Part shown: positions 18,053-43,942 of the stretch, one piece after another
Numbering within the stretch: position 1 is the first letter of the stretch
How the letters are laid out: the number at the start of each line of letters is the position of its first letter
Assembly (NCBI RefSeq): GCF_003058465.1
Contig: NZ_CP028901.1
Coordinates: forward strand, 2,108,001-2,172,000
DNA from: Orrella marina
Lineage (GTDB): Bacteria > Pseudomonadota > Gammaproteobacteria > Burkholderiales > Burkholderiaceae_B
Reading direction: 5' to 3'
DNA: 64,000 nt
The notes under the pieces: generated by a model
What the model was told of the DNA's origin: nothing
What the model saw: only the letters and a program-made list of their open reading frames with translations
Database searches by the model: none
Translations under genes and position numbers: made by a program

Positions 18053-18058
18053 GCAGAA

Positions 18059-21378: not shown

Positions 21379-21899
21379 ATCGTTTCTTTTGGCCCTTGGC
21401 CGGCTTTATCGTGTTGGTGGGTTTTCTTGCGATAGGTCTCACATTAAAACCGAGCGAACTGCCGTCACCATTGATCAGTAAGCCAGCACCAAGCTTTTCC
21501 CTGCCCCACTTAGCGGCGCCCGAGAAGGCCTTTACGCCAGAAGAGATGAAGGGCCAGGTGTGGCTATTAAACGTATGGGCGTCATGGTGCGTTGCATGCC
21601 TTGATGAGCATCCTGTCATCACGGAACTGGCTAAATCGGGCATCGTGCCCATCGTAGGGCTCAATTACAAGGATGTGCGAAACGAAGCACTCGCGTGGCT
21701 CGCACGGAACGGCGATGCTTATACGCTGTCAGTTTCCGATACGCAGGGGCGCGTGGGCATCGACTACGGCGTCTATGGCGTGCCTGAAACATTTGTGATC
21801 GATAAGCAAGGCGTTATTCGCTACAAACACATAGGGCCAGTGACGCAAAGCGCTGTGCGCGACACACTCTTGCCACTGATAAGGGAGTTGCAGCAATGA
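21375..21899 (+). CDS. ccmG: Periplasmic thiol-disulfide oxidoreductase CcmG/DsbE
   Basis: Membrane-anchored thioredoxin-fold protein that keeps apocytochrome CXXCH thiols reduced. It has an N-terminal anchor (PLAGFIVLVGFLAIGLTL), active site WASWCVACLDEHP, and the cis-Pro segment GVYGVPETFVIDKQG typical of CcmG. The GTG start at 21375 overlaps ccmF by 4 bp. It presumably receives electrons from the CcdA encoded downstream. Confidence 0.94.
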   Translation: MNRFFWPLAGFIVLVGFLAIGLTLKPSELPSPLISKPAPSFSLPHLAAPEKAFTPEEMKGQVWLLNVWASWCVACLDEHPVITELAKSGIVPIVGLNYKDVRNEALAWLARNGDAYTLSVSDTQGRVGIDYGVYGVPETFVIDKQGVIRYKHIGPVTQSAVRDTLLPLIRELQQ

Positions 21900-22348
21900 A
21901 ATATTGGTGGCTGGCGGTGTTTTGCCTACTAAATGCAATGCCCTCTTTGGCGACGAGCGCCGAGCTTGAGAAACGTATGCTGGGCATCGCAGCGGAGCTG
22001 CGCTGCCTAGTATGCCAGAACGAATCCATTGCGGCGTCACGGGCCGATCTGGCGGTCGATTTACGTCAGCAAATCCGAGAGCAGATCCAGGCCGGCCAGA
22101 CTGACGACGAGATCCGAACCTATATGGTCGAACGGTACGGTGATTTCGTGCTCTATCGCCCGCCGTTCAAAGCCACCACTTTCTTGCTCTGGTTCGGACC
22201 GATGCTGCTCTTTTTCTTTGGCCTCACGATACTAATGGTGTCGCTGCGTCGACGCAAGGCTCGAATTGTCAACTCGTCGTTGAGCGACGAAGACCGCAGA
22301 CGAGCTAACGCGTTGTTGGCTCAAGCTGCCGACACTGGGAAACGCTGA
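21896..22348 (+). CDS. ccmH: Cytochrome c maturation protein CcmH
   Basis: Short CcmH (150 aa) with a signal peptide, the redox motif LRCLVCQNESIAASRADLA, and a C-terminal membrane helix (FLLWFGPMLLFFFGLTILMV). It is part of the CcmFHI haem ligation complex. Because CcmI is encoded separately, this is the split arrangement rather than the fused one of E. coli. Confidence 0.95.
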   Translation: MKYWWLAVFCLLNAMPSLATSAELEKRMLGIAAELRCLVCQNESIAASRADLAVDLRQQIREQIQAGQTDDEIRTYMVERYGDFVLYRPPFKATTFLLWFGPMLLFFFGLTILMVSLRRRKARIVNSSLSDEDRRRANALLAQAADTGKR

Positions 22349-23226
22349 TGAATATAATTTTTATTGTACTTGCCGCGCTGCTGGTTTCAGCAGTCGCGCT
22401 GCGCCTCGGGCTCGTGCTATGGCGGGGGCCACGCACAGACGGGGGTGTAGAGCACCACGTGGTTAATGCGTCTGTACTGCGTGACCAATTCGCTGAACTG
22501 GACCGTGACCGCAGGAGCGGCACCTTATCCGAGCAAGACCACGCAGAAGCTGTTCAAGACCTACAACGCCGCGTCCTCGAGGAGGCAAAGCCGCCAACAA
22601 CGATCGTCAGCCGCCGGCCAAGCAGCAAGTATGCAGCGCTAGGGCTGGCCATCGTACTCCCCTTAGCATCCACGTTGATTTACCTTCGTTTGGGAAATCC
22701 TGCGGCAATTAGCCCAGTACCCGTGCAAAGCGTCCCAAACGTCACGCAGGCCGATGTGCAAGCCATGGTAGATTCGCTCGCTGCCCGCCTTGCGCTCAAC
22801 CCCGATGATCCGGCAGGCTGGCTGATGCTGGCGCGTTCGTATCGCTATTTCGACAGGTATGAAGACGCCGCTAATGCTTTTGCGAAAGCGGGCGGCGCGA
22901 TCAAGTCAGACCCACTCGCTTTGACCGAATATGCCGAGGCACTTGTACGAAGCAGCTCGAATGGATTCGTGGGCGAGCCTACCGCGCTACTTGGGCGAGC
23001 GCTCGCTCTTAATCCTAAAGAACCCTTTGCTCTGACCCTGGCGGGGGCTGCAGCGCTCGAACGCCGCGATTACGATCAGGCAATCAATTATTGGCAACAG
23101 TTGCGCGAACTGCTTCCCCCTGATTCAGACGCCGCGCGCGCTGTCAACGACAGCATCGAGCGCGCGCGCGGGCAGCGGGATCAAAACACACCTTCCGATA
23201 AGTTAGGGATTGAGCAACCATCATGA
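22348..23226 (+). CDS. ccmI: Cytochrome c biogenesis protein CcmI (TPR)
   Basis: Apocytochrome c chaperone of 292 aa. Two membrane helices flank a basic cytoplasmic segment with LRDQFAELDRDRRSGTLSEQ, which is typical of CcmI. A TPR domain of about 150 residues follows (LALNPDDPAGWLMLARSYRY repeats). It starts at the ccmH stop codon. Full length. Confidence 0.92.
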   Translation: MNIIFIVLAALLVSAVALRLGLVLWRGPRTDGGVEHHVVNASVLRDQFAELDRDRRSGTLSEQDHAEAVQDLQRRVLEEAKPPTTIVSRRPSSKYAALGLAIVLPLASTLIYLRLGNPAAISPVPVQSVPNVTQADVQAMVDSLAARLALNPDDPAGWLMLARSYRYFDRYEDAANAFAKAGGAIKSDPLALTEYAEALVRSSSNGFVGEPTALLGRALALNPKEPFALTLAGAAALERRDYDQAINYWQQLRELLPPDSDAARAVNDSIERARGQRDQNTPSDKLGIEQPS

Positions 23227-23837
23227 AGAGCCCATTTAAGATATTCGCCTGGTCGGCGCTAGCCCTTATCGCCGTCATTGCCATCGCGACCGCTTTGTAT
23301 TTTTATCAACGTGGCAATGCGTCGAAGAATCCCCTCGCCGGCATGCTCAATGTTGCAGTTGATATTGGGGACCAACGCTTTATGCGCTGGCATACGCCGC
23401 GCGACCTGCCCGCCTTCACTTTTCAGGACGAAGCCGGCAAGGAGATGAGCCTGACGGACTTCCGTGGAAAGGTCGTGTTGCTCAACATTTGGGCCACCTG
23501 GTGTCCACCTTGCCGAGAAGAAATGCCCTCGCTTGATCGGTTGAACGACAAACGTGGCGGCGAGAACTTTGAAGTGGTGGCCTTGTCGATTGATCGTGAC
23601 ACCGCCTTGGTCAAGCCGTTCTATGAAGAGTTCGGGATACAGGCTTTGCGCGGCTACTTCGATCCGTCGGCACAGATTCCAAATGCGCTTCGCGCCCCAG
23701 GCGTTCCAACGACTCTGCTGATTGATCGGGACGGACGTGAAATTGGTCGCGCAATGGGGCCTGCCGCTTGGGATAGTACTCAAGTAGAAGCCTTGATCGA
23801 TGCCGCATTGGCGCGCTCGCCGGGTGAAGGCCAATGA
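23223..23837 (+). CDS. TlpA/ResA-like membrane-anchored thioredoxin
   Basis: A 204-aa protein with one N-terminal helix (IFAWSALALIAVIAIATAL), then a thioredoxin domain with WATWCPPCREEMPSL and cis-Pro GVPTTLLIDRDG. It overlaps ccmI by 4 bp, so it belongs to the ccm operon and gives a second reductant next to CcmG. The CPPC active site suggests a ResA/TlpA-type disulfide reductase for apocytochromes or for copper-site proteins. The precise partner is not known. Confidence 0.88.
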   Translation: MKSPFKIFAWSALALIAVIAIATALYFYQRGNASKNPLAGMLNVAVDIGDQRFMRWHTPRDLPAFTFQDEAGKEMSLTDFRGKVVLLNIWATWCPPCREEMPSLDRLNDKRGGENFEVVALSIDRDTALVKPFYEEFGIQALRGYFDPSAQIPNALRAPGVPTTLLIDRDGREIGRAMGPAAWDSTQVEALIDAALARSPGEGQ

Positions 23838-23883
23838 CAATGGGAAGCTTCAATGTTAAGAAACAACCGTTTGAGGCTATGCG

Positions 23884-24630
23884 ATGCTTGAGTTGAGTAC
23901 CGTTGGATTGCTAACAGCGTTTGTCGCCGGCATCGCGTCATTCTTGTCGCCGTGTGTGTTACCGCTCGTACCAGGCTATCTCTCTTTTGTTGCGGGTGGC
24001 GCGGTTGCGCCAACGGCATCCCCAATGGAGGTGCGCCTTAGGCGCTGGAGAACCCTTGGACTAAGCGCATGCTTTGTGCTGGGATTTTCGTCGGTGTTTC
24101 TGATTCTGGGCGCCAGCATTACGGCAATCGGACGCCTGTTCTTAAGCTATCGCTACGAACTCAATATTGCGGCAGGCGTCATTATCGCGCTTGCGGGCCT
24201 CATGATCATGGGCGTCGTTCGTACGCCGCTATGGGCTCAACGCTACTATCGCTTCGAGTCCAGCGTGAAGGGTGGTAACCCTTGGTCGGCAACATTGCTT
24301 GGCGTGGCCTTTGGTTTTGGTTGGACGCCATGCATTGGACCGGTGCTTGGCAGCATCCTTGTGCTGAGCGCCACCTCTGAGAGTGTTGGGCATGGAACAG
24401 TGCTGTTAGGTGTGTATGCCTTGGGGCTGGGGGTACCGTTCCTCCTTTCCGCATTCTTCATGACGCCTTTTATGCACCGTCTGAGCGCTTTGCGCCGTAC
24501 GGGTCGTTACCTGCAGCTCGTAACCGGTGCGATCCTCGTCTTGATGGGTATCGCCGTAGCGAGCGGGCAATTGGTGCGTTTTGCGATTTGGTTGCTAAGG
24601 ACATTCCCGGCCCTTGGCAGTATAGGTTAA
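23884..24630 (+). CDS. ccdA: CcdA-type thiol:disulfide interchange membrane protein
   Basis: A 248-aa, six-helix protein of the CcdA/DsbD-beta family that carries electrons from cytoplasmic thioredoxin across the membrane to CcmG or TlpA-like proteins. The two conserved redox cysteines lie in ASFLSPCVLPLVPGYLSF and FGWTPCIGPVLGS. It follows the thioredoxin gene by 46 bp. Confidence 0.92.
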   Translation: MLELSTVGLLTAFVAGIASFLSPCVLPLVPGYLSFVAGGAVAPTASPMEVRLRRWRTLGLSACFVLGFSSVFLILGASITAIGRLFLSYRYELNIAAGVIIALAGLMIMGVVRTPLWAQRYYRFESSVKGGNPWSATLLGVAFGFGWTPCIGPVLGSILVLSATSESVGHGTVLLGVYALGLGVPFLLSAFFMTPFMHRLSALRRTGRYLQLVTGAILVLMGIAVASGQLVRFAIWLLRTFPALGSIG

Positions 24631-24659
24631 CGGACACAGGCCATGTGATCCAAGCCGAT

Positions 24660-24727
24660 GCCGACGCTATATGGTCGCGAGCGCCATGGCGCTCGCCTCG
24701 TCCATTATGAGGTCGGCCTATTTTTTT
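24660..24727 (+). terminator. Branched hairpin with T-tract between ccdA and dsbB
   Basis: An outer stem GCCGAC / GTCGGC (24660-24665 and 24712-24717) encloses a perfect 20-bp palindrome, GCGAGCGCCATGGCGCTCGC (24677-24696). It is followed by a run of seven T. This looks like a terminator or attenuator that separates the ccm/ccdA unit from dsbB-dsbA. Confidence 0.55.
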
Positions 24728-24755
24728 GGAGTCGTCCATTGAGGACTGAAGTTTT

Positions 24756-25190
24756 ATGACTATCGCAACGCATCTTTCTGAACCACGTTGGTATCGCCTC
24801 TTTGCTGCATGGATTATTGCACTTGTCGCAACGCTGGGGGCCTTATTTCTCAGTGAAATCATGGGCCTGGACCCTTGCGAGCTTTGTTGGTACCAGCGCA
24901 TTTTCATGTTTCCGCTCGTTTTCGTTCTAGCAGTTGGCCTGGCCACTTCGGACACACAAGTCTTCAGGTATGCATTGCCGCTCGTCGCCGCTGGATGGCT
25001 TGTCGCCGCGTACCATAATCTTTTGTATGTCGGTGTTATTCCGGAAGCGCTCCAGCCCTGTGGCGCAGGCCCTTCCTGTGCGAAAGCCGATCTGAACCTG
25101 TTCGGTTTTATTTCGATTCCCCTCCTGTCGTTAGTCGCATTCACCACGCTCGCTGTTCTTCTTATCGTAAAAAAAGGTCCTCAAAAGTGA
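24756..25190 (+). CDS. DsbB/BdbC-like disulfide oxidoreductase
   Basis: A 144-aa, four-helix membrane protein. The first redox pair is in LDPCELCWYQRIFMFPL and the second in LQPCGAGPSCAKADL, the pattern of the short BdbC-type DsbB. It should reoxidise the DsbA-like partner, whose gene overlaps it by 4 bp, passing electrons to quinone. Confidence 0.9.
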   Translation: MTIATHLSEPRWYRLFAAWIIALVATLGALFLSEIMGLDPCELCWYQRIFMFPLVFVLAVGLATSDTQVFRYALPLVAAGWLVAAYHNLLYVGVIPEALQPCGAGPSCAKADLNLFGFISIPLLSLVAFTTLAVLLIVKKGPQK

Positions 25191-25837
25191 AAAAACGAAC
25201 TCTTCTTACTCTTACCAGCATCGTCGCGGTCATGGCTTTTGCCCTGAGCGCTTTCGTATATGAACAGAGCCAGCTTCGCAAGAATAAGACGGCAGACACC
25301 CCGGCGAGCGAGCTCGTTCGAATGCATTCGCCTGTTTTCGGCGCGGCGAGCGCCAAGGTCACGATCGTTGAATTTTTCGATCCATCCTGCGAAACATGCC
25401 GGGCTTTCTACCCCGGCGTCAAAGATCTCGTCAACGCCCATGATGGAAAAGTCAAACTCGTCATTCGCTATGCCCCTTTTCACGAGGGCTCCGAGGACAT
25501 GATTAAGATTCTTGAGGCGTCCAGAATGCAAGATAAGTATTGGCCGACTTTGGAAACGGTCCTACGTATGCAGCCCCAATGGGCCTCGCATGACAATCCA
25601 CAGCCAGATCTAATTTGGGGCTTTCTCGAGGAAAGCGGTTTGGACGTTGAAAAGGCGCGTAAAGACGCGGGTAAGGAAACCGTTGCGACCGTTATTGAAC
25701 AAGACAAGACAGATCTTCGTACCTTGAATATAAAGCAGACGCCCGCCTTTTTTGTCAATGGCCAGCCTTTGCCTAAATTTGGCTATGAGCAGCTTAAGGC
25801 GTTAGTTGAGCAAGAGGTCAAGGCGGCCTATCCCTAA
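25187..25837 (+). CDS. DsbA-like thiol:disulfide oxidoreductase
   Basis: A periplasmic thioredoxin-fold protein (216 aa) with an N-terminal anchor or signal helix (LTSIVAVMAFALSAFVY). The active site CETC is in VEFFDPSCETCRAFYP, and a cis-Pro is in IKQTPAFFVNGQPLP. The DsbA_2/BdbD-type architecture and the 4-bp overlap with the DsbB gene identify an oxidising pair. Together with CcdA/CcmG/TlpA, the island carries both oxidising and reducing periplasmic thiol routes. Confidence 0.88.
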   Translation: MKKRTLLTLTSIVAVMAFALSAFVYEQSQLRKNKTADTPASELVRMHSPVFGAASAKVTIVEFFDPSCETCRAFYPGVKDLVNAHDGKVKLVIRYAPFHEGSEDMIKILEASRMQDKYWPTLETVLRMQPQWASHDNPQPDLIWGFLEESGLDVEKARKDAGKETVATVIEQDKTDLRTLNIKQTPAFFVNGQPLPKFGYEQLKALVEQEVKAAYP

Positions 25838-25885
25838 AGCCCGCGCTTTCCATCCCACACCCCAGAACGGAATAACGGCTGACGT

Positions 25886-25984
25886 ATTGATCAGATTGAC
25901 GTTAGACGAGCATATCCATGAGGCGGAGGGGCGTGTCAAAGAATTGATGCAGTTCAAGAGGCATCTGATTCAAGTTGGAGTGTG
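25886..25984 (+). pseudogene. PbrR/CadR-type MerR regulator fragment
   Basis: A short stretch reads LTLDEHIHEAEGRVKELMQF then KRHLIQ. It aligns with the dimerisation helix of the intact PbrR-like protein at 34581-35003 (LLDEHIHAVEVRVDELMQLK). No start, DNA-binding domain or C-terminal metal site is present. It is a relic of a second metal regulator, presumably of the metal genes that once adjoined the dsb pair. Confidence 0.6.
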
Positions 25985-26084
25985 GCGTGGTGGGTGGAAA
26001 TCGCATGGCGAGAATCGACACAGAATCGCGCTAGAATTCTTGAACTATGTCTTGCGGTGCCGTAGCGCCGCTGCGGAGTGATAA

Positions 26085-26288
26085 ATGATCAGTTTGGCCA
26101 GTGGCATTATACTGGTTGTCGCATTTGCGATAGCCTTTGCTATTTCCCGGCTTGTTGTAAAGCGCCGTGCGGCAAGCGCAGCTACACAGGAGCGATTGCG
26201 TGGTGAGCAGCTTCGACAAAACTCGCTGCCGCCTGTGCTATCGAAGAATAAAAGTAAAAGGCGGCGCCAAGAGCGTGCGCAACGCTGA
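26085..26288 (+). CDS. Small membrane protein of unknown function
   Basis: 67 codons: an N-terminal transmembrane helix (SGIILVVAFAIAFAISRLVV) followed by a strongly basic tail ending SKNKSKRRRQERAQR. Composition suggests a real single-pass protein with a cytoplasmic tail, but no family is recognised. The 245 bp that follow, up to the CDF-like gene, show no gene. Confidence 0.4.
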   Translation: MISLASGIILVVAFAIAFAISRLVVKRRAASAATQERLRGEQLRQNSLPPVLSKNKSKRRRQERAQR

Positions 26289-26532
26289 TGTCTGTTTTTG
26301 AGAGCGCCCCTTGTCAAGGCTTCTGTAGTGGTTTAGTGGCGTCATTTGTTGCAGGGCATAACAGGTGCATAAGGGTAAAGGAAAGTGTCCGTAGTTCGAC
26401 GTTGTTGAGCGAACCAGCGCCACAATAATCATTGTCGAACCTATCGGCTCGTCGGCGAGGTAGAAGGGCAGAGCGACTTCAACCAACAACGCCTACGGCA
26501 CGCGCCGTCATAAATGGGCCGCAGATAGGCGA

Positions 26533-27180
26533 TTATCGTTGCTTTTCGGGTGCGGCAGGTGCCCCTTCGCGGCGCGCCTGGCGTGCTTGCTCTAGGATCT
26601 CCCATCCGCCCTTAAGCGCGATGCCGGCCACCACCAGCCCGATCAGCAAGTCCGGCAGTGGCGATTTGAAGAAAATGATCGCGACCCCAGAAACGGCAAT
26701 GCCGGCATTAGCGATCATGTCGTTGGTGGTGAAAATCCACGAGGCATGCAGATTAACCGCCTCTTTCCGATGCGCCCGCAATAGGCGCAGGCAGACCAGA
26801 TTGGCGGCTGCGTTTGCGATCGCCGCGACGATCATCACCATGCCGACCGGCTCTCCGCCCGCCGCAAAACGCCGCAGGACTTCGACGAGCAGCCCCACGG
26901 CAAGCGCGATCAAGAAAAATCCGGACAAGCGCGCGGCTCGCGCCTTGGCGACAACAGAGTGACCGACGGCGTACAGGCTCACCGCATACACCAAGCCGTC
27001 GGCAAGATTGTCCAGGGCCGCGCCCATCAGACCAGTGGAGTCGGCAGCCACGCCGACGACGCCAATTACCAACGCTTGCGCCAGATTGATGGCAAGTACC
27101 CAAACCAGCGTGCGCCGCTGGGTAGCATCGCGCACATCAAGTTCGCTCTCGCCGCCATCGGCGTCGCATTCATTGCTCAT
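26533..27180 (-). CDS. CDF-like cation transporter
   Basis: A 215-aa membrane protein of the cation diffusion facilitator type. The metal site of helix 2 is seen in MGAALDNLADGLVYAVSLY (DxxxD), and that of helix 5 in LHASWIFTTNDMIANAGIA (H...D). It lacks a long cytoplasmic C-terminal domain, so it is a compact version. The start MSNECDADG at 27180 lies 11 bp after the P450 stop. It is the last gene of the seven-gene operon led by the P-type ATPase, so efflux of Pb/Zn/Cd is inferred. Confidence 0.75.
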   Translation of the reverse strand: MSNECDADGGESELDVRDATQRRTLVWVLAINLAQALVIGVVGVAADSTGLMGAALDNLADGLVYAVSLYAVGHSVVAKARAARLSGFFLIALAVGLLVEVLRRFAAGGEPVGMVMIVAAIANAAANLVCLRLLRAHRKEAVNLHASWIFTTNDMIANAGIAVSGVAIIFFKSPLPDLLIGLVVAGIALKGGWEILEQARQARREGAPAAPEKQR

Positions 27181-27190
27181 GCCCAACCTC

Positions 27191-28438
27191 CTAGATCTGC
27201 CGCACATTCCTAATCAAAAATCGGCTGTTCGGCAATGCCGGGATGCGCGACAGACTGATCCGCAAATCCTGCTGCGGGACCTCGTATTGAATGCGCGCGC
27301 TCAGGAACTCCGCAGCTACTTTCATCAGTTCGATGGTAATCCACTCACCAGGGCAGCGATGGCCGTTGCGGTGGCTGCCTCCTCCCTGTGGGATGAAATT
27401 GAAGGCGCTCCCGTCCCAGTGTCGGAAACGCTCCGGTACAAATGCGTCTGGCCTATCCCAGAGTCGGGTATCGTGGTCCGTGCCGTATAAATCGAGGAGC
27501 ACCCTTGTTCGCCCGGGCAATCGATAGCCCTTCCATTCGAACTCGTGGCGTGTGCGCGCGGCGACTACTGGGAAAAAAGGATAGAACCTGCGAACCTCCT
27601 GCACGAAACATTCCAGATAGCCCTCCTGCGCGGCCGCAATCCGTTGTCGACATTCAGGATATTGGTGCAACGCCAGGGCCGCGAACGTCACATACCAAGC
27701 TACGGCAACGGTCGGGCGCAGCACGTTGATGAGCTCCACCGCCGCGATCCGTTCATTCAGCAACTGCCCCTGCCTATCACGGTGAAATGCGATCATATGC
27801 AGCGCGCTGCCTTCATCCGGTGCTAGCCGGTGGTTACGTACATCCTCCACGATGCCGCCGATCCACTTTTCCGCCCGATTGCGCGCCCATCTTCCACGCC
27901 AGTGCCGCAGGCCGATCGCCGCCCCTGCGTCGATCATCGCGGCGAAGTCCCGAGCTCTTTTCGTTACCTCCAATTCTGCGAGCGGCACCCCAGCCCACTC
28001 GCATACGGCACGGCACAGGATTTCGCATGCTTCGTCCAGCAGCACAATCTGCTCCTGCTCTTCCCACTTTGCCGCATAGGCGCGCCACTGCATCGCGCTC
28101 AGCTCGCCCAAACGCGAGATGGCTTGCGCGCTCATCAGCGACAGAAACATCTCTTTGCGCCAACGGTGGGCCGCGCCGTCCGATCCCTGCACTCCGCCCC
28201 GGCCGAACAAGGTTTCCTGAACCCTGACCGGGGCGACGCCGGAGCGTTCGAACCGGCCTTCGTCGTAAAACAACCGCGCTGCGTCTTCGCCGCGCATGCA
28301 GATGCTTTTGCGTAGCAGGAGCCGCGTCTGAAACAGATCTGTTCGGTACCGATCGCAACGTTTCGTGACGAACAGGTAACCATCCCGTGCAAACGGAAGC
28401 GTGCTGTCCAATGTTTTGTCGCTTGGAGTCTTCAGCAT
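27191..28438 (-). CDS. CYP152-type cytochrome P450 (fatty-acid peroxygenase)
   Basis: A 415-aa P450 with the CYP152 hallmarks. The haem ligand Cys362 is in GHRCPGEWITIE, and Arg241-Pro242 in NVLRPTVAV is the carboxylate-binding pair that replaces the usual acid-alcohol. Gln84 sits where the peroxygenase P450-BSbeta has Gln and the decarboxylase OleT has His, which favours alpha/beta-hydroxylation of fatty acids with H2O2. No redox partner is needed. It sits between Lnt and a CDF-like transporter in a metal operon, an unexpected place; a link to lipid repair under oxidative metal stress is my inference. Confidence 0.88.
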   Translation of the reverse strand: MLKTPSDKTLDSTLPFARDGYLFVTKRCDRYRTDLFQTRLLLRKSICMRGEDAARLFYDEGRFERSGVAPVRVQETLFGRGGVQGSDGAAHRWRKEMFLSLMSAQAISRLGELSAMQWRAYAAKWEEQEQIVLLDEACEILCRAVCEWAGVPLAELEVTKRARDFAAMIDAGAAIGLRHWRGRWARNRAEKWIGGIVEDVRNHRLAPDEGSALHMIAFHRDRQGQLLNERIAAVELINVLRPTVAVAWYVTFAALALHQYPECRQRIAAAQEGYLECFVQEVRRFYPFFPVVAARTRHEFEWKGYRLPGRTRVLLDLYGTDHDTRLWDRPDAFVPERFRHWDGSAFNFIPQGGGSHRNGHRCPGEWITIELMKVAAEFLSARIQYEVPQQDLRISLSRIPALPNSRFLIRNVRQI

Positions 28439-28508
28439 AAAAATGTTCTCTCCATTGCAGGGCGATCGCCGTGCCAGCTTCCAGTACCATTTTAATAAGC
28501 TGCCTAGA

Positions 28509-30053
28509 CTAACTCAGCAAGAATCTTGCCCGGTAGTTTCGCACCGCCGCGCACAGCACGAGCAGCACACCGGCTCCGCAGAGTAACAGAGTCGGCAGAT
28601 TGCCCATCTGTACATAGGGCGTAGCCCCAGTAAAACCTTGTGCCATATCTAACAGCCCCACCGTCCTGTGCATTGGTGCCAATTGCACGATACGTCCGCG
28701 TTCATTAATGATGCCCGTGGCACCGGTATTCGTTGCGCGCAACATGTACCGGCCGGTTTCCAGAGCCCGCACTTGAGCGATCTGCAGATGCTGCGGCAAC
28801 GCCAACGTGTCGCCGAACCAAGCCAGATTGCTGAGATTTACCAAGACTGTCGCCTCCGGCAAAGTCCGGATGATCTCCTCGCCGAACACGTCCTCGAAAC
28901 AGATATTGATCGCCACTCTTTGGCCAGCCAGGCGTAGCGGCGGCTGCGCAGCGGCGCCAGACGATAAGTCGGCTAGCGGAATATGCAGGATATCGAGCAC
29001 CCAGCCCAGCAACGGTTTGGCTGGGATGAATTCGCCAAATGGAACGAGATGTTGCTTGCGATACGTTTGTCCAGCCGACGTTCCCATGGTAACCGCGCTG
29101 TTGTAGTAACGCGTCTCGTTTTGTTCAACCACGCGCTCCGGTACGCCGATGATCAGATCGGCCTGGGCCGACCGCGTCCACCTGCTCAGTTCGTCAACAT
29201 ACCCCAACGGAAGCTCGTCAACGAACAACGGCAACGCAGTTTCCGGCATAACGACAAGCTTCGCCTTGCCTTGCTGCTGCAGCAATGAACGGTAAGTGTC
29301 TAGCGTTGATGCGACCTCGTCAGTACGCCATTTTCGGTCTTGCGGAATATTTCCCTGCAACAGCGCAACGAGAAATGACGGCCCGACGGGCGATGTCCAA
29401 TGCACCTGCTGCAGCCCCGCGCCGACGGCCCACATGCCGAACAGCAGTGCGATACTCCATCGTTTTCGGCCCTTTCGATGCGTCAGAAAGTCATGCAACA
29501 GTGCTGCGCTTACTGCCACGACAAGGGAAACGCCATATACACCCAGCACCGGCACATAACCGGCTAACGGACTGGGAAATGTCTGCGAATAGCCGACAGC
29601 CAGCCATGGGAAACCGGTGAATATGACGCCGCGCATCCATTCTGTCGCCACCCAGCACGCGGGTAGCGCAACGATACACAACAGCCGGCCGTTATCGCGG
29701 GCATACCAAGCGCCGGCGCCAAACAAAGCGGAAAACAGCGCCAAAAAGCTGCAAAACCCGATGGTCGCGATGATCGCTAGCATCACCGACATACCGCCGT
29801 ACACGTGCAAGCTGACGTAGATCCAGCTCACACCCGCGCCGAACAAGCCCAGCCCGAAAAAAAATGCCACCAGCGCAGCGTGCCTGGCGGTGGACTGTCG
29901 CAGCACGAGGCCAAACAGTGTGGCCAGCGAAAGCACCGGCACCGCGAAGAGTGCAAACGGCGCGTACCCGAGCACCGTTAACGCGCCCACTGTCAGGGCA
30001 ACGGCACAGGAAAAGGCTGGCACGCCGACGATGACAGCGATTAATCGACGCAA
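28509..30053 (-). CDS. lnt: Apolipoprotein N-acyltransferase Lnt
   Basis: A 514-aa integral membrane enzyme that adds the third acyl chain to lipoproteins. Several N-terminal helices precede a periplasmic nitrilase domain with the Glu-Lys-Cys triad: VVMPETALP, YRKQHLVPFGEFIP and AINICFEDVFGEE. It is complete. Presence inside a metal-resistance operon next to lspA indicates an accessory copy rather than the housekeeping gene. Confidence 0.92.
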   Translation of the reverse strand: MRRLIAVIVGVPAFSCAVALTVGALTVLGYAPFALFAVPVLSLATLFGLVLRQSTARHAALVAFFFGLGLFGAGVSWIYVSLHVYGGMSVMLAIIATIGFCSFLALFSALFGAGAWYARDNGRLLCIVALPACWVATEWMRGVIFTGFPWLAVGYSQTFPSPLAGYVPVLGVYGVSLVVAVSAALLHDFLTHRKGRKRWSIALLFGMWAVGAGLQQVHWTSPVGPSFLVALLQGNIPQDRKWRTDEVASTLDTYRSLLQQQGKAKLVVMPETALPLFVDELPLGYVDELSRWTRSAQADLIIGVPERVVEQNETRYYNSAVTMGTSAGQTYRKQHLVPFGEFIPAKPLLGWVLDILHIPLADLSSGAAAQPPLRLAGQRVAINICFEDVFGEEIIRTLPEATVLVNLSNLAWFGDTLALPQHLQIAQVRALETGRYMLRATNTGATGIINERGRIVQLAPMHRTVGLLDMAQGFTGATPYVQMGNLPTLLLCGAGVLLVLCAAVRNYRARFLLS

Positions 30054-30130
30054 CCCCGCCTCCAGTCACCGTTCGAATGCCCTGCTAAGCTCTCGCCGCT
30101 CGGACGATATCGGTTAATCATCGCTTGATA

Positions 30131-30622
30131 CTAAAGCTTACGTAGGTACGTGATGATTTTCCAGATTTCTGTTTCTTGGAAGACGCCATCAAATGGAGGC
30201 ATTGCTGTTCCAAGCGGTACCCCGCCTTTCGCGATCGTCCAGTACAAATAGCCGTCCGTCGCCATCGGCATTTTGCTAAATACTGCAATGTTTGACGGGC
30301 GCGGGTTTAAAATCTTCCCCGCCTCGCCGTTACCCAGTCCTGTCGCTCCATGACAGGAAGCACAGTTTTGCTCATATAGTTTTTTCCCGCTCGCGATGAT
30401 TTGTGAGTCAGGAGAAAGTGGATTGTTTTTGTTAGTGTATCTTTCATCAATGCCGTTCATCATGGCGAATCGATGACGCTTCATCGACATATTCATTTGT
30501 CCACAATCTTGCATCGGGCGCAAATCCATATGTCCGTCTCTCATCATTCCCATCTGACCATATCCCGATACTGGCAAAAGGACTACAGCGGACACGGCAA
30601 TACTGGTAAACAGTTTTCTCAT
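30131..30622 (-). CDS. Exported class I cytochrome c
   Basis: A 163-aa protein with a signal peptide (ending near VSGYGQ), then a Met/His-rich linker (MGMMRDGHMDLRPM, MNMSMKRHRFAMM). One cytochrome c domain follows, with haem motif CASCHG and distal Met in AMPPFDGVF. The Met/His-rich linker could bind soft metals. It would depend on the Ccm system encoded 6 kb away and is co-directional with lnt and lspA. Confidence 0.85.
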   Translation of the reverse strand: MRKLFTSIAVSAVVLLPVSGYGQMGMMRDGHMDLRPMQDCGQMNMSMKRHRFAMMNGIDERYTNKNNPLSPDSQIIASGKKLYEQNCASCHGATGLGNGEAGKILNPRPSNIAVFSKMPMATDGYLYWTIAKGGVPLGTAMPPFDGVFQETEIWKIITYLRKL

Positions 30623-30685
30623 TTCACATCCTAGTCTCGCTTACGTTGAACAAGTTGCCAGTTGTCGCCGCAACGGAACTCCGGG

Positions 30686-31216
30686 CTATTCATTCGTTTT
30701 CTCCTTCGATACATCGTTTGCTTGACGCAGGCTTGAAAAGACCATCAGCGCGGCGCCGCAGACGATGGCGATATCCGCCACGTTGAATGCAGGCCAATGC
30801 CAGCCGCCCAGATGAAAATCGAGGTAATCGACGACGTGTCCGCGCAGCAGGCGATCGAACGCGTTCCCAAGCGCGCCACCTAAGATTAAGCTATAAGCTA
30901 ATGCCTGCGACGCTGGCAACGGCTTGCGTAGCTCAAGAGCTATCCAGACCGAGACGGCGAAGGCGATCACGATGAAGAAATATCGCTGCCATCCCCCGCC
31001 GTCGGCCAAGAAACTGAACGCAGCGCCGGTATTCCAAGTATGCACAAGATTGAAAAAGCCGGTCATCGGAACCGATTGCCCATACGGCATTAGCGCCGAC
31101 ACGCCAGCTTTGGTGATGATATCCAGCACCAGCGCCGCGAACGCGATCATCAACCAGCGCCGTTGATACGCACGCACCTGATTAGGCACACTCGGTTGCA
31201 AGAGTTTATCGGTCAT
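30686..31216 (-). CDS. lspA: Lipoprotein signal peptidase LspA (PbrC-like)
   Basis: The 176-aa prolipoprotein signal peptidase II has four helices and the catalytic aspartates in GGALGNAFDRLLRGHVVDYL and AFNVADIAIV, plus VHTWNTGAAFSFL. In lead-resistance operons an LspA homologue (PbrC) accompanies PbrA, and this gene holds that position. It is probably a metal-regulated accessory copy. Confidence 0.92.
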   Translation of the reverse strand: MTDKLLQPSVPNQVRAYQRRWLMIAFAALVLDIITKAGVSALMPYGQSVPMTGFFNLVHTWNTGAAFSFLADGGGWQRYFFIVIAFAVSVWIALELRKPLPASQALAYSLILGGALGNAFDRLLRGHVVDYLDFHLGGWHWPAFNVADIAIVCGAALMVFSSLRQANDVSKEKTNE

Positions 31217-31378
31217 ATTGCATCTCCAAATCTTCCTTGTGCCAGATCGGCATCAACATCGGCCGGAATGCGCGCGCATGCAAATCGGTTGCTTCGCCTA
31301 AGCGAAATGTGAAGCGGCCCATGGTCCGGTCATGCTCGCCTGTTCGGACCAGCGCAGAACTTGTCGCCATAATATGTA

Positions 31379-31903
31379 CTACTTCGAGAGAGCGTTGGCA
31401 GGCTTAACTTCGCACAGCGCCTTAGCTGTTTCCCCTGACTGAAACGCGAAATCGGCTTCGACTTCCTTACCAACGGCAAGCGCTTGAGTAGGCTTCTCAA
31501 GCATCGCATGGTAGCTGCCCGGCTTAAACTCCAGTTCGCCACCGGCAGGGATCGAAACAGCGTCAGCCACGGCCATTCTGCTTTTCCCGTCCTGATCGAT
31601 CGTTTGATGTAAGGACACCTGGTCGAAAGCGGCAATAGACATGGAGGCGAGCTTTGCTTCACTATTGCCGGCGTTCTTTATCACAAAGTAGCCCGCAGAA
31701 GGAGTCGGCCTTGGCAAGGAGCGAATCCAGCAATCCGAAACCGTCAGTGTTTTAGACAGCTCGGCGCCGCCATCGGCGCCTTTGCTGACGTGTTGTGCGG
31801 TTTGCGCATGAGCTGCGACGGGTACGTGTGCATCGTGTGGACCTGCAGCATAGACAATGGAACCCGTACACAGGACAAAAGCGCCAACAATCACTCTTTT
31901 CAT
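31379..31903 (-). CDS. Periplasmic PCu(A)C copper chaperone-like protein
   Basis: 174 aa, with signal peptide (VIVGAFVLCTGSIVYA) and a His-rich mature start. The PCu(A)C fold is marked by SAGYFVIKNAGNSEAKL and the metal ligands in VSLHQTIDQDGKSRM and PGSYHAMLEKP (H-x-M spacing). Such proteins bring Cu(I) to cytochrome oxidase or bind it in the periplasm. It lies between the P1B-2 ATPase and LspA. About 160 bp separate it from lspA with no further gene. Confidence 0.85.
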   Translation of the reverse strand: MKRVIVGAFVLCTGSIVYAAGPHDAHVPVAAHAQTAQHVSKGADGGAELSKTLTVSDCWIRSLPRPTPSAGYFVIKNAGNSEAKLASMSIAAFDQVSLHQTIDQDGKSRMAVADAVSIPAGGELEFKPGSYHAMLEKPTQALAVGKEVEADFAFQSGETAKALCEVKPANALSK

Positions 31904-32001
31904 ACGGTTACCTCAGAAAAACGAAAACTTTCATAAACGCTCGGATGTCATTCCTGTCCGGACAGGATCAATATGAACCAAAACATCGCCTTCACGTTTG
32001 C

Positions 32002-34431
32002 TCACGATGCCCTTGCCGGCTGTAAGGGCAATTGATGATGCTTTGTCGGCGCCGCTCCCTTGAAACGCAGCAGACGTAACGCATTGAGCGTGACAATTGC
32101 CGTCGCGCCCGTATCGGCCATGACGGCAACCCACAAGCCCGTGACGCCCAGCACAGTGGTAATCAGGAATACGGCCTTCAAACCGAGCGCAAAAATCACG
32201 TTCTGATGGATATTTGCCATCGTTGCACGTGAAAGCGCGACTAGGTGGGCTACATCCGTAACGCGGCTTTTCAGCAGAGCCGCGTCGGCCGTTTCGATCG
32301 CCACGTCGGTGCCACCGCCCATCGCGATGCCGACATCGGCCGTTGCCAGCGCTGGTGCATCGTTGATGCCATCGCCCACCATGGCGACCTTGGCGCTGCG
32401 CTTCATTTCATCGATCAGGCGCAGCTTATCCTGGGGCAGAAGCTCGGCTTCCCATTCCATGCCCAAATGGCCGGCGATGGCTTGGGCGGTCAGGCGGTTA
32501 TCGCCGGTGAGCATGACTGAGCGCACGCCCATCGCTTTGAGTTCGGCCACACCTTCTTGTGCGTCCTGCCTTGGCTCATCGCGTAGCGCCACCAGTCCAA
32601 GCACTTCACGGGTCTGTTCGTCCAGTAGAACGGAAACGGTTTTTCCGTCATGTTGCAGCGCTTCGATGCGTGCGCGTTGTCCTTCTGTCAGGGTTGCTGC
32701 TTGCGCGGTGTAAATCGGCGACCCAATGGCCAACTGGCGGCCAGCTACGCTTGCATGTACGGCTTTACCTGCGGTGGCGTAGGCATGCGAGGCAGCGGGG
32801 ATAAGGCTGTTAGCGGCCTCGGCATGGCTCACAATGGCTTTGGCTAGCGGGTGATTCGAACCGGATTCTACGCTTGCGGCGAGCGCTAAAATCTCGTCCT
32901 CGCGCCCTGATGTAAAGGCAACCACGTCAGTGACGCGGGGCTTGCCCTCGGTCAAGGTGCCTGTCTTGTCAAACGCGATCGTACTCACCCGACCAATGGT
33001 TTCTAAGGCATTGCCGCCCTTGATGAGTAGCCCGCGGCGCGTCCCGACAGCCAAGCCTGAGGCAATAGCCGCCGGCGTAGACAGCACGAGTGCGCAGGGG
33101 CAGGCGATCAGCAACAGCGCCAGACCACGATAAAGCCACGTTTCCCAGTCAGCCCCCATCGCCAGCGGCGGAACAAGCACGATCAGCGCGGCAATAGCCA
33201 TCACGGCCGGCGTGTAGTAACGACTGAACTGCTCAATGAAACGGGCGGTGGGTGCCTTAGAGGCCTGTGCCTGTTCAACCAGATGGATAATGCGCGAAAT
33301 CGTGTTGTCGGCGGCGGCCTTTTCCACGCGAATCTGGAGCACTCCATCAATGTTGATGGAGCCAGCGAATACATTATCGCCTGCCGTCTTCGCAAGAGGT
33401 ATGGACTCGCCTGTGATGGGCGACTCGTCAAGGCTGGACGCGCCTTGGATAATCACGCCATCGGCGGACACCCGGTCCCCGGGGCGCACGAGCACATGGT
33501 CGTTCACGTCCAACGAGGCCGCGAGGACCTCGCGTTGCCCACCTTGTGGATCGATTAAAACCGCCGTTTTCGGAACCAGTGATGCCAAGGCCCTGATGCC
33601 AGCGCGAGCATGGCCGGCAGCGACGCTCTCCAGCAACTCACCGACCGAAAATAAAAATACGACGGCCGCTGCCTCTTCGGCCTCGCCAATGACCAGGGCG
33701 CCAAGCGCGGCCACGGACATTAGCGTTTCGATCGAAAAGGGCGAGCCAGACTTGGCCAGCGCGAGCGCTTTGCGGGCAAAGGGAAAGACGCCGACAATCA
33801 CGGCTGCAGCAAACACCCAGGCTCCGTAATTCGGGAAAAATTGCGCGATAGCGTAGGCGGTGGCCATCAGAATGCCAAGGCCCACGACCTGCTTGCCCTT
33901 TCTAGTTTGCCACCAACGCAGCTGGGGTGCGGCGGCTTGATCGTCCGTGCCGATGCCTGGCGTAGCGCTTTGGTCGGTACTGGCGGATACGCCAAAGCCC
34001 AAGCTCTTAATGGTTTTTTTGATGTCACCAAGCTGGGTGGGCGATTCGGGCGCCAGCGTCAGTTCGAGCCTCTCTGTGGCGAAGTTCAGCCGGATATCAG
34101 AAACGCCGGGCATGCGTGCCAGCGCCGTTTCAATCTTGCCGACGCAGCTTGCGCAGTCCATTCCCTCTACTTGCATGGAGACGCCTGGAGGCACTTCCTG
34201 GGCGGGAGCGGAAGCCGCGCTTTTAGCGACTGGGGCATCGCTGCCGCGGGGTGGGTAACCCGCCTGGCACAAGGCGGTTTCAAGCTGCATTCTTGTCGCT
34301 GACGAGGTGACTTGCACGCTGCGCGTGGGCGGATCGGTGGCGACCTCCGCCTTCGGATCGACTGAGTGGATGGCTTTGACGACATTGCCGGCGCAACCGC
34401 CACATGTCATGGCTTCGATATGAAACTGCAT
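32002..34431 (-). CDS. P1B-2-type Pb/Cd/Zn-translocating ATPase (PbrA/CadA-like)
   Basis: An 809-aa heavy-metal efflux pump. Two N-terminal HMA domains carry MTCGGC and MDCASC. The ion-site motif is CPCALVLSTP, the phosphorylation loop DKTGTLTEG and the hinge [17 protein letters not shown] followed by MADTGATAIV (Lys in helix 7, D-x-G in helix 8) is the signature of the Zn/Cd/Pb subgroup. The start chosen, 34431, has GGAGAAATTCTC just upstream. It heads the minus-strand operon opposite the PbrR-like gene. Confidence 0.93.
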   Translation of the reverse strand: MQFHIEAMTCGGCAGNVVKAIHSVDPKAEVATDPPTRSVQVTSSATRMQLETALCQAGYPPRGSDAPVAKSAASAPAQEVPPGVSMQVEGMDCASCVGKIETALARMPGVSDIRLNFATERLELTLAPESPTQLGDIKKTIKSLGFGVSASTDQSATPGIGTDDQAAAPQLRWWQTRKGKQVVGLGILMATAYAIAQFFPNYGAWVFAAAVIVGVFPFARKALALAKSGSPFSIETLMSVAALGALVIGEAEEAAAVVFLFSVGELLESVAAGHARAGIRALASLVPKTAVLIDPQGGQREVLAASLDVNDHVLVRPGDRVSADGVIIQGASSLDESPITGESIPLAKTAGDNVFAGSINIDGVLQIRVEKAAADNTISRIIHLVEQAQASKAPTARFIEQFSRYYTPAVMAIAALIVLVPPLAMGADWETWLYRGLALLLIACPCALVLSTPAAIASGLAVGTRRGLLIKGGNALETIGRVSTIAFDKTGTLTEGKPRVTDVVAFTSGREDEILALAASVESGSNHPLAKAIVSHAEAANSLIPAASHAYATAGKAVHASVAGRQLAIGSPIYTAQAATLTEGQRARIEALQHDGKTVSVLLDEQTREVLGLVALRDEPRQDAQEGVAELKAMGVRSVMLTGDNRLTAQAIAGHLGMEWEAELLPQDKLRLIDEMKRSAKVAMVGDGINDAPALATADVGIAMGGGTDVAIETADAALLKSRVTDVAHLVALSRATMANIHQNVIFALGLKAVFLITTVLGVTGLWVAVMADTGATAIVTLNALRLLRFKGAAPTKHHQLPLQPARAS

Positions 34432-34455
34432 GAGAATTTCTCCTTTGAATGCAGG

Positions 34456-34487
34456 TATTAGAAAGCCTCTAGCGGCTTCAGAGTCAA
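34456..34487 (-). promoter_or_regulatory. PbrR/CadR-type operator-promoter of the ATPase operon
   Basis: On the minus strand TTGACTC (-35) is followed by an overlong 20-21 bp spacer with the dyad AAGCC-GCTAGA-GGCTT and then a CTAATAC -10 region. The long spacer and TTGACTCTnnAG...CTAGAGG pattern are typical of MerR-family lead/cadmium promoters. The regulator is encoded divergently, 94 bp away. Confidence 0.8.
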
Positions 34488-34580
34488 GCGCTTTGATTTC
34501 ACCCCGCAACAGGTCAGATCTTGATTTCTTGATCGCACAAGCCTATAGTCACTCGAGTGTTATAAACAATAGAGGCCGTC

Positions 34581-35003
34581 ATGCCAATGAAGATCGGTGA
34601 GCTTGCCAAACGTACAGAATCAACGGTTGAAACCATCCGGTACTACGAAAAGGAGGGCTTGCTGCCCGAGCCTTCTCGAAGCGATGGCAATTATCGTTTG
34701 TATGGCGAGGAACACATTGAACGCTTACGATTCATCCGGCACTGCCGTACGCTCGACATGGCGTTGGACGAAGTTCGAACTTTGCTTCGGTACCGCGATA
34801 CGCCTACTGAGGATTGTGGCGACGTGAATGCCTTGCTTGATGAGCACATCCACGCGGTGGAGGTGCGCGTCGACGAGTTGATGCAATTAAAGGGGCATCT
34901 GGTGGTTTTGCGCCAAAAATGCGCGAGCACGGCACCGACCAGTTCATGCGGGATATTGCGTGCCCTTTCCGATCGATCTTGCCATGCGGAGAAGCTGCCC
35001 TAG
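34581..35003 (+). CDS. MerR-family metal regulator, PbrR-like
   Basis: A 140-aa activator with N-terminal HTH (MKIGELAKRTESTVETIRYYE), a dimerisation helix and a C-terminal metal loop. Cysteines are at 79, 114, 123 and 134. The Cys114-x8-Cys123 spacing matches PbrR (lead) rather than CadR, while the Cys14 of plasmid PbrR is Ser here. It is divergent from the P1B-2 ATPase operon and is expected to activate it in response to Pb(II) or related ions. Confidence 0.88.
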   Translation: MPMKIGELAKRTESTVETIRYYEKEGLLPEPSRSDGNYRLYGEEHIERLRFIRHCRTLDMALDEVRTLLRYRDTPTEDCGDVNALLDEHIHAVEVRVDELMQLKGHLVVLRQKCASTAPTSSCGILRALSDRSCHAEKLP

Positions 35004-35178
35004 TGAGGTGACGAACCAGAAAACACGCGGATTACTTTATTGTCATATTTCCGAAATGATAGTCGGGTATACGAAGCCATGCGGTAGCGGCGCAGCAAGG
35101 ACGCACAGCGGTGTGAGCGCTCCTTGCTTTGTTGACCTAAAGCTTTAATAAAGTAGGTAAGCGTGCAGGGCCTCTTGT

Positions 35179-36183
35179 TTACTTGGAGGCTTGCGGCGCA
35201 GTACGAACGGTGCCGCCGAGCTTTGCAATCAAACGTACGTAGACCAGTTCACTAATTAACTCGACCAAGGTTTGCGTGACGATGATTGCCGGCAGGACGG
35301 GGATGGCCCCAGGCACAGCGAGGGCAAGCGGCAACACGACCAGAGAATTACGCGTTCCGGCACTGAAAGCGACGGCCCGTCCGGCGGCGGGATCAAGGCG
35401 AAATAACCGGCCGACACTCCATCCGATGAATGGAGCAATCATGGCAAAGAGGATATAAAACGGGATCACGCCCAAGGCCGCATCGGTGGCTGGCCCGAGC
35501 TGCGCCAGGACAGCCAACACGACAATGAACAAGACGACGGCGGTCGCTGGTACGGGCAAAAACCCAAGTGCCGCGGATGCTCTTTTACCACTGTGGCTTC
35601 GAGCTGCCCACAGCTGCATGGCGCCGGCCAGGGCGAGCGGAGCAGCAATTAACCAGACAAAGGCATGGACGAAGGGGCCGGGCTGGACAAGGGTTGCTGC
35701 ATCATTCCCGAGGAACAGTCCCAGATAGACTGGTAGCAACAACATCTGCACAACCAAGAGCGTGGGAGTTGCCGCCAATAGCAGGCGAGCATCAGCTCGC
35801 CCCAAGTGCGAGAACGTTACTACGTAGTCGATGCACGGCGTCAGCAACACCAACAGAACCCCTAATCGCACCAGAGGGTCGGGCGGCAGGAGTTGCACGA
35901 CTACAGCAATCAAAAGCGGAATAGCCACAAAGTTCGTGGTGAGTAATGCAGCGAGAAACCGACCACGACCGAATGCTCGCCCAAGATCGGCTAATGGCAC
36001 TTGCAGGAATGTTACAAACAACATAACAGCGAGCGCGGGATTGATGCCATATCCGAGTGCCGTGGTGCCAGGCACTAATGAAACCACTAAAACAGCTAAG
36101 ACAACCGAGCCCAAATAGATGCCGACTTGGTGCTTTTCGACTAACTCTCTCTTGATTTGCATACCTCTGTTTAGCTCCGCCAT
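35179..36183 (-). CDS. Arsenic resistance transporter, ACR3/bile-acid symporter family
   Basis: A 334-aa, ten-helix membrane protein of the BART superfamily. The LLTPCIDYVVTFSHLGR segment with its Cys in helix 4 is typical of arsenite-efflux-related members, and SAGTRNSLVVLPLALAVPG is the second conserved repeat. Linked to arsH and arsC in the same direction. It differs from the ArsB at 39211, so the cluster has two unrelated efflux proteins. Arsenite versus methylated arsenical preference cannot be told. Confidence 0.78.
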   Translation of the reverse strand: MAELNRGMQIKRELVEKHQVGIYLGSVVLAVLVVSLVPGTTALGYGINPALAVMLFVTFLQVPLADLGRAFGRGRFLAALLTTNFVAIPLLIAVVVQLLPPDPLVRLGVLLVLLTPCIDYVVTFSHLGRADARLLLAATPTLLVVQMLLLPVYLGLFLGNDAATLVQPGPFVHAFVWLIAAPLALAGAMQLWAARSHSGKRASAALGFLPVPATAVVLFIVVLAVLAQLGPATDAALGVIPFYILFAMIAPFIGWSVGRLFRLDPAAGRAVAFSAGTRNSLVVLPLALAVPGAIPVLPAIIVTQTLVELISELVYVRLIAKLGGTVRTAPQASK

Positions 36184-43850: not shown

Positions 43851-43942
43851 TTGGTAGCCGACGCCCCATGAACGGCTCGCAGCGCATCCAAAGCCATCGA
43901 AATAGCTTTCTTGACAGCTCTTTGGTTCGAACTCAGATCTCG

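Follow-up and report, generated by a model that had tools for sequence, protein, structure and literature searches.

We analysed a 64-kb stretch of the genome of Orrella marina (the window: positions 2108001-2172000 of a 4.23-Mb single-contig genome), in which a regulator gene on the plus strand faces seven genes on the minus strand (26533-35003). In order from the regulator, these encode a P1B-type ATPase, a PCu(A)C protein, LspA, a cytochrome c, Lnt, a cytochrome P450 of the CYP152 family and a small cation diffusion facilitator (CDF). The cluster is probably a heavy-metal resistance operon of the pbr/cad type, controlled by a CadR/PbrR-family regulator, with an added lipid and lipoprotein arm. 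What we observe directly is its gene content, its operator, the intactness of the catalytic residues and a linkage of its genes that recurs in separate parts of the phylogeny; we infer its co-transcription, its inducer and its purpose. The combination of CadR, P1B ATPase and LspA is of the known pbr/cad kind, and the lipid arm is what is new.

All eight proteins match curated family models, and a preliminary description of this DNA had assigned the genes to the right places, strands and families. The ATPase exceeded the cut-offs of TIGR01525 (602.8 bits, cut-off 346.25) and of the cadmium family TIGR01512 (534.4 bits, cut-off 313.5) and has two N-terminal Cys metal-binding motifs as well as the CPC and DKTGT motifs. 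Judged by eye from the ribosome-binding sites (RBS), its start is most likely the ATG at 34431 rather than the TTG at 34509; the CDF most likely begins at 27180. The PCu(A)C protein (PF04314, 93.2 bits, cut-off 29.4) retains, by computed match, an intact HX10MX21HXM, which we take to be the motif of this family. In LspA (TIGR00077, 135.9 bits, cut-off 73.95), the FDR and VAD motifs carry both presumed catalytic aspartates. Lnt (TIGR00546, 331.5 bits, cut-off 132.9) is 34-39% identical to the other Lnt of the genome, and its motifs PETAL, RKQHLVPFGEF and NICFED hold the Glu, Lys and Cys that we assume to be catalytic. The cytochrome c (PF13442, 54.0 bits, cut-off 27) had been called rich in Met and His; it is indeed Met-rich (14 Met in 163 residues), but it has only three His. 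The P450 carries Gln84, Arg241 and Cys362, as previously noted, and its closest solved structures are fatty-acid peroxygenases; by family it would be an H2O2-driven fatty-acid hydroxylase.

The CDF has 215 residues, and the match to PF01545 (45.7 bits, cut-off 26.6) covers model positions 4-192 of 198. It is not a canonical CDF: the C-terminal domain is absent, and the site in the fifth transmembrane segment (TM5), for which we take the canonical His/Asp metal site to be HxxxD, reads FTTND. The same Phe is found in close relatives, and also in the CDFs of a second metal set of this genome (L119) and of Vibrio (L176). The protein instead conforms to the small PbtF-like type (about 211 residues, transmembrane part only) and is 57% identical to a protein of plasmid pA81 taken as PbtF; we take this pA81 locus (L255) to be pbtTFYRABC of Achromobacter xylosoxidans A8.

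The regulator scored 183.7 bits with the CadR-PbrR model TIGR02047 (cut-off 151.45). As the preliminary description stated, it faces a long-spacer promoter of the MerR type (TTGACT-19 nt-TCTAAT, minus strand 34487-34457) with an imperfect dyad; a 19-bp spacer of this kind is a further mark of CadR/PbrR regulators. The pattern matches twice in the 64-kb window, at 34457-34487 (-) and 55758 (+), and the promoter resembles TTGACTCTGTAGCTACTACAGGGTTTTAAAT, which lies next to a further cadR/ATPase pair in this genome. The cysteines 79, 114, 123 and 134 named earlier are present, as is Cys55. In the Pb-specific PbrR, Cys14, Cys79 and Cys134 are needed for the response to Pb, and a CXC motif lies at 132/134 (PMC3431237). 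Our regulator shares Cys79 and Cys134 but lacks Cys14 and Cys132, and hence the CXC motif. It is therefore not a Pb-specific PbrR in the strict sense, and lead as the inducer is not supported. A short open frame near the other end of the cluster (25806-26081, +), adjoining a DsbA-like gene, has a middle part, LDEHIHEAEGRVKELMQFKRHL, that by eye resembles the tail of a second CadR/MerR regulator, left as a remnant.

The intergenic gaps in the seven-gene unit measure 98, 162, 63, 77, 70 and 10 bp. A consensus scan found no σ70-type promoter on its coding strand, and terminator-like sites were at chance level (12 on both strands of 26000-35200, compared to 9.7 ± 3.3 in shuffled sequences). The seven genes are therefore likely read as one transcript.

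Table 1. Features of the metal cluster and of the adjoining divergent block (positions in the window).
Feature	Position	Strand	Basis
CadR/PbrR-family MerR regulator, 140 aa	34581..35003	+	family model, residue check
CadR-type promoter/operator TTGACT-19-TCTAAT, before ATPase	34457..34487	-	pattern match
P1B heavy-metal ATPase, cadmium type	32002..34431	-	models; start from ATG and RBS
PCu(A)C copper chaperone	31379..31903	-	PF04314, motif match
LspA (signal peptidase II)	30686..31216	-	TIGR00077, FDR and VAD aspartates
Small Met-rich cytochrome c, one CxxCH	30131..30622	-	PF13442
Lnt (apolipoprotein N-acyltransferase)	28509..30053	-	TIGR00546, Glu/Lys/Cys motifs intact
CYP152 fatty-acid peroxygenase family member	27191..28438	-	NF053744, Gln84, Arg241, Cys362
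215-aa CDF without C-terminal domain, PbtF/CdfX-like	26533..27180	-	PF01545
Divergent block: DsbE/TlpA-like, CcdA-like (name by eye), DsbB, thioredoxin-4/DsbA-like	23223..25837	+	

The neighbours of CYP152 genes were surveyed at 79 loci from named genomes by tblastn, with seeds from proteobacterial loci and with phyla taken from the record titles. A metal-island gene was present within 6 kb at 25 of the 29 proteobacterial loci; the partners were CDF (23 loci), LspA (18), CcdA (16), P1B ATPase (12) and Lnt (2). None of these metal-island genes was detected at the 50 loci of other phyla (37 Actinomycetota, 8 Bacilli, 5 other), of which two from Bacilli had a MerR-type match alone. As controls, we took CYP152s from 398 genomes of the phylum (80 matching, own genome included; six full-length matches taken) and from 200 genomes of the family (18 matching, own genome included; ten taken). 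Neither LspA nor CDF was found in these 16 flanks. The only control loci with any listed gene were L165, with a partial ATPase match, and L158, with a match to Lnt. Flanks were shorter than 6 kb on a side at 8 of the 29 proteobacterial, 11 of the 50 other and 4 of the 16 control loci. The control P450s are 40-51% identical to that of the window, the 29 proteobacterial ones 50-69%. Ordinary CYP152s of the phylum are thus not metal-linked, whereas a subset is. The possibility, raised in the preliminary description, that the P450 and Lnt neighbours occur only here by chance is not borne out. L158 is a separate case, a CYP152 without metal neighbours near an Lnt match; since lnt is a housekeeping gene, this proximity could be due to chance.

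A CYP152 tree was built from 68 loci plus the window (69 rows) out of 103 loci; seven short or stop-containing sequences were left out and 28 actinobacterial ones were thinned. The metal label was removed by hand from L165 (partial ATPase match); the Lnt match of L158 was named in the same label line, and Lnt was not among the label genes. The label, carried by 33 of the 69 rows, needs five changes on the tree, at least four of them forced by starred branches, compared to 23.1 for shuffled labels. A single origin of metal-linked CYP152s is therefore disfavoured; because the root is unknown, gains and losses are indistinguishable. Repeated joining of the same partners is better evidence for a shared job than one inherited linkage. 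The window P450 groups with that of Massilia agri (L002; support 100/99), whose neighbourhood contains LspA, a 204-aa CDF (48% identity), merA, an ATPase and a protein that includes a cytochrome c portion. Azospirillum L006, with ATPase, UppP, LspA, Lnt and CYP152, and Vreelandella L017, where Lnt and CDF are present as short fragments, occupy other places in this large group. Two alphaproteobacterial groups contain 22 of the other 29 metal-linked rows.

CYP152 relatives were also present in 140 plasmid records. We opened 15 of these loci: nine from the top of the list, five from an even spread and one via a CDF search. Among the 14 rows of the spread, the top six (about 45% identity or more) were opened and eight weaker ones left out; five of the six had metal genes and one (L259) did not. 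In total, metal genes were found at 13 of the 15 loci (L102-L106, L110, L170, L171, L256-L258, L260, L261), with a CDF alone in L171; L104 is the same record as L015. Packing is tight: the lspA and P450 frames share 4 bp in L102, and in L110, L260 and L261 the CDF and lspA frames share 4 bp and are followed after 3 bp by the P450. The Gram-positive Paenibacillus lautus (L258) combines ArsR, ATPase, LspA, CYP152, a cadmium transporter, CcdA, thioredoxin and DsbB, and a planctomycete plasmid (L256) carries CzcA, CadA, thioredoxin, a small CDF, CYP152 and a second CDF. Lgt is present at the Jiella/Aurantimonas loci.

Metal-linked Lnt is uncommon but recurrent. We searched 369 genomes of the window's class, scoring at most four candidates per genome, so copies may be missed. 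At least 15 genomes, own included, had two or more matches. From 12 of the other 14 we fetched 28 copies (the split copies of G828 and G933 were left out), and four copies, in three genomes (G245, G756, G860), had LspA, a regulator of the MerR family and either a CDF or an ATPase as neighbours. The regulators at these loci score below every specific cut-off. A distant Lnt (L229) with a CzcA match about 3 kb away was not counted. Among eight plasmid loci with an Lnt relative, opened from the top of the match lists, seven were metal clusters (L106, L107, L108, L172, L173, L174, L176; LspA is not annotated in L174), and the eighth, L175, is a chromosomal-type block on a plasmid. The P450 and Lnt of the window are thus not chance neighbours: combinations of CYP152, LspA and CDF, and of LspA and Lnt, recur in the metal clusters of many bacteria, from which a lipid and lipoprotein arm of metal resistance may fairly be inferred.

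A second family of lipid hydroxylases occurs in the same setting. The window CDF is 69-71% identical to proteins directly beside CYP152 at four loci (L005, L024, L066, L170). In pA81, the small CDF adjoins a fatty-acid hydroxylase of family PF04116 (92.8 bits, cut-off 31), and Cupriavidus plasmids carry the same pair (L266). The small CDF and LspA also occur together at loci of Bosea, Shinella, Comamonas and Martelella, where neither kind of lipid hydroxylase was found within 6 kb (tblastn), so that the hydroxylase is optional. Strict mutual exclusion of CYP152 and PF04116 was rejected, since L017 has a PF04116-like stretch near CYP152. We tentatively propose that fatty-acid hydroxylation is a working part of resistance to thiophilic metals that was repeatedly recruited in Pseudomonadota, from the two unrelated families CYP152 and PF04116, beside a PbtF-type exporter and LspA/Lnt, with CYP152 also on plasmids of Bacillota and Planctomycetota. 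Under this proposal, which may well be wrong, the metal would poison lipoprotein acylation and thiol chemistry of the envelope, and the hydroxylated products would protect or rebuild it.

It seems quite unlikely that the P450 mainly removes cytosolic H2O2, with fatty acids as a mere co-substrate and the lipoprotein enzymes linked for another reason. The alternative partner in pA81 and Cupriavidus is PF04116, whose known members use O2 rather than H2O2; the shared factor thus points to lipid, not peroxide. What speaks for such a sink is that CYP152 enzymes do use H2O2 (PMC7438502), and that CYP152 has a nearby peroxiredoxin gene in L170 and a nearby thioredoxin gene in L256. True remodelling, as the preliminary description suggested, would mean that Lnt and housekeeping enzymes incorporate hydroxylated fatty acids into lipoproteins or membrane lipids, with less metal entry as a result. 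This would fit the P450 gene directly following lnt in the window and in L006, and Lgt at the Jiella/Aurantimonas loci. Lnt transfers acyl chains from phospholipid to lipoprotein and PF04116 members hydroxylate lipid chains, which counts in its favour as well. However, the sequence gives no sign of incorporation, most of the 29 loci have no Lnt near CYP152 (2 of 29 do), and L258 comes from a Gram-positive, which makes remodelling improbable. Neither remodelling nor peroxide derived from the metal, both put forward in the preliminary description, gains support from these data.

Several known systems resemble the cluster. The pbr operon of Cupriavidus metallidurans pMOL30 (PbrTRABCD) shares the same-family MerR-type regulator, the 19-bp spacer, the P1B ATPase and LspA, there called PbrC (PMC1526738, PMC3431237, PMC2864759). 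By gene content and operator, the window would likewise have a PbrA-type ATPase and a PbrC-type LspA under the regulator; it differs by adding PCu(A)C, cytochrome c, Lnt, CYP152 and CDF, and by the regulator without Cys14 and CXC. PbrB phosphatase, PbrT permease and PbrD are not among the eight cluster proteins, and the rest of the window was read by eye. LspA might take the part of PbrC, which assists PbrB, a periplasmic phosphatase that causes lead to precipitate as phosphate, and PAP2 or UppP phosphatase genes do stand beside LspA in L255, L264, L109 and L006. This is nevertheless very unlikely, given an operon without a phosphatase and several related loci with LspA where no phosphatase is annotated (e.g. 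L110, L257, L260).

The pbt cluster of pA81 is similar in CadR, P1B ATPase, LspA, the small CDF and an adjoining fatty-acid hydroxylase; it differs in having PF04116 instead of CYP152, a PAP2 phosphatase and an FTR1/cytochrome permease, and Lnt is not annotated. The transposon Tn6018 (cadR-cadA-lspA-tnpA) likewise joins CadR to a cation efflux gene and lspA, in a unit that is mobile, whereas ATPase, Lnt and P450 are not reported in the parts of the sources available (PMC5561048, PMC6863613). A cadR-CDF-LspA set is also present elsewhere in our genome (L119). The metal clusters with Lnt and LspA (Halomonas HAL1 L173, Stutzerimonas L108, Pseudomonas L172, Vibrio L176) have a MerR-family regulator, an ATPase or CDF, LspA and Lnt in one run; the regulator is annotated as cadR in L108, L172 and L176, and CYP152 is not annotated. 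Alphaproteobacterial plasmid clusters (L102-L104, L110, L257, L260, L261) share LspA beside CYP152 and a metal exporter. They differ by an ArsR/SmtB-family regulator (six of seven; none was seen in the L102 stretch), a longer CDF and, in some, a CcdA/DsbD-type gene, and Lnt is not annotated alongside. The statement that Lnt and CYP152 fall outside the classic set is thus right by name, yet pA81 has a fatty-acid hydroxylase of another family and cadR-cadA-lspA is already known as Tn6018 (PMC5561048). Neither CYP152 nor Lnt was described as part of a metal-resistance operon among the literature matches listed, which covered open-licence titles and abstract starts and give weak evidence of absence.

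For the operon itself, we envisage the following. Judging from its family and operator, the MerR-type sensor would bind a thiophilic divalent metal (Cd, Pb or Zn) and activate the 19-bp-spacer promoter; from gene direction, RBSs and the lack of other signals, transcription would then continue through to the CDF gene. The ATPase and the small PbtF-like CDF would, as members of their families, export the metal and lower its cytosolic level, and the envelope would be exposed to what is exported. PCu(A)C and the cytochrome may serve periplasmic copper handling or electron transfer and respiration, as their families suggest. LspA and Lnt would form an inducible second set, most likely sustaining lipoprotein maturation when metals hit the periplasm; Lnt's catalytic cysteine and the cytochrome-maturation, Ccd and Dsb genes of the island point in this direction. 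The Ccd, Dsb and thioredoxin proteins of the neighbouring block could keep thiols in order. The CYP152 enzyme, by the chemistry of its family, would hydroxylate fatty acids with H2O2, perhaps clearing free fatty acids and peroxide that arise from envelope damage. Published expression data bear on some of these steps. In RNA-seq of two Mesorhizobium strains, Zn raised signal peptidase II (log2 1.64 and 1.85), CcdA (3.04 and 4.07) and CadA (3.07 and 5.32), and the signal peptidase locus tags lie near those of CcdA and CadA; CcdA and CadA were also up with Cd, and that text names no P450 (PMC3668242). For pbtF, induction by Pb, Cd and Zn and a measurable efflux of Pb have been reported (PMC6210171).

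Several observations weigh against a metal-resistance operon with a lipid arm. Neither the order LspA-cytochrome c-Lnt-CYP152-CDF, for which the preliminary description had suggested a survey, nor the full seven-gene order was found at any other locus examined, so support for the claim comes from pairs and triplets of genes that recur, not from a conserved operon. Four proteobacterial CYP152 loci (L009, L057, L064, L068) are without metal genes, and so are two plasmid loci (Streptomyces L259, Paenibacillus cellulositrophicus L267). At two of the 25 positive loci (L024, L066), a CDF stands alone or with just a MerR match, and one of the two Lnt matches near CYP152 is a short fragment (L017). 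Several of the 29 loci are near-copies of one another, so that the Fisher value (1e-10) is overstated, and the proteobacterial seeds lower the sensitivity of tblastn in other phyla. The window P450 exceeds the cut-off of the CypC model NF053744 by a slim margin (606.8 bits, cut-off 600). The 98- and 162-bp gaps could conceal separate signals, and a simple lipobox pattern, of untested sensitivity, picked out no lipoprotein substrate in the window. With Cd, the Mesorhizobium signal peptidase was not significantly up (log2 0.65, false discovery rate (FDR) 0.3, and 0.69, FDR 0.14; PMC3668242), and pbtF did not make E. coli GG48 more tolerant (PMC6210171).

Some of these points would suit the view that CYP152 and Lnt are cargo of a mobile element and that ATPase, CDF and LspA alone matter for metal resistance. 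Gene order is not conserved between CYP152 metal loci, four of the 29 proteobacterial loci lack metal genes, several small-CDF/LspA loci have no lipid hydroxylase, and the window contains a tyrosine integrase (weak family match) and, by eye, group II intron-like and IS66-like genes. We still judge this view unlikely. The metal label needs five changes on the CYP152 tree, the P450 gene overlaps or abuts lspA in several plasmids, CYP152 stands within metal clusters of Paenibacillus and of a planctomycete plasmid, and an unrelated fatty-acid hydroxylase lies beside the same kind of CDF in pA81.

CYP152 enzymes are widely used in biocatalysis, and their cellular role is poorly known. Few P450s of Firmicutes have a known physiological function (PMC7438502). 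Their presence in metal islands, beside lipoprotein-maturation genes and on several branches of the tree, gives them a testable cellular role. It also suggests that PbrC-type LspA does more than help one phosphatase and belongs to a broader set of envelope-maintenance genes (LspA, Lnt, sometimes Lgt, Dsb/Ccd, lipid hydroxylases) carried along with metal exporters. That parts of the combination turn up repeatedly in the mobile DNA of unrelated bacteria suggests an overlooked role for envelope care in metal resistance.

By its neighbours, the cluster sits in a metal island. The integrase lies to its left (6683-8170), together with the intron-like and IS66-like genes and a cytochrome c maturation run identified by eye; to its right are ArsH, ArsC, an ArsR-family regulator and a copper-type ATPase. 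Inside the island, the maturation run and the DsbE, CcdA, DsbB and thioredoxin-like genes occupy 16737-25837. At other loci, too, genes like those of this divergent block are found with CYP152, LspA or the small CDF (Ccd/Dsb/Trx genes in L258, L261, L265), and CcmF and DsbE are also near CYP152 in L170.

The genome holds three LspA, two Lnt and three CadR over the cut-off, and its one P450 match is the window CYP152. The second metal set, cadR-CDF-LspA, lies at 2231138-2232978 of the genome (L112, L119), about 60 kb past the window, and its LspA is 57% identical to that of the window over the matched stretch. In the eight congeners searched, the window P450 had no match and Lnt only a distant one (34-55% identity over the matched stretch). 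Close DNA relatives on plasmids were rejected, two short ATPase pieces being the sole matches. At 4.2 Mb, the genome is larger than those of the eight congeners (2.1-2.8 Mb, some incomplete), which suggests much acquired DNA.

Near the copper-type ATPase, an open frame with long His and Ala-His repeats (43778-44332, +) may encode a metal-binding protein or be a chance frame. Beside the regulator, 35179-36183 (-) encodes a protein of the sodium/bile-acid-symporter family (PF01758); L170 and L172 have comparable genes annotated close to CYP152 or cadR, and another was spotted by eye in L002.

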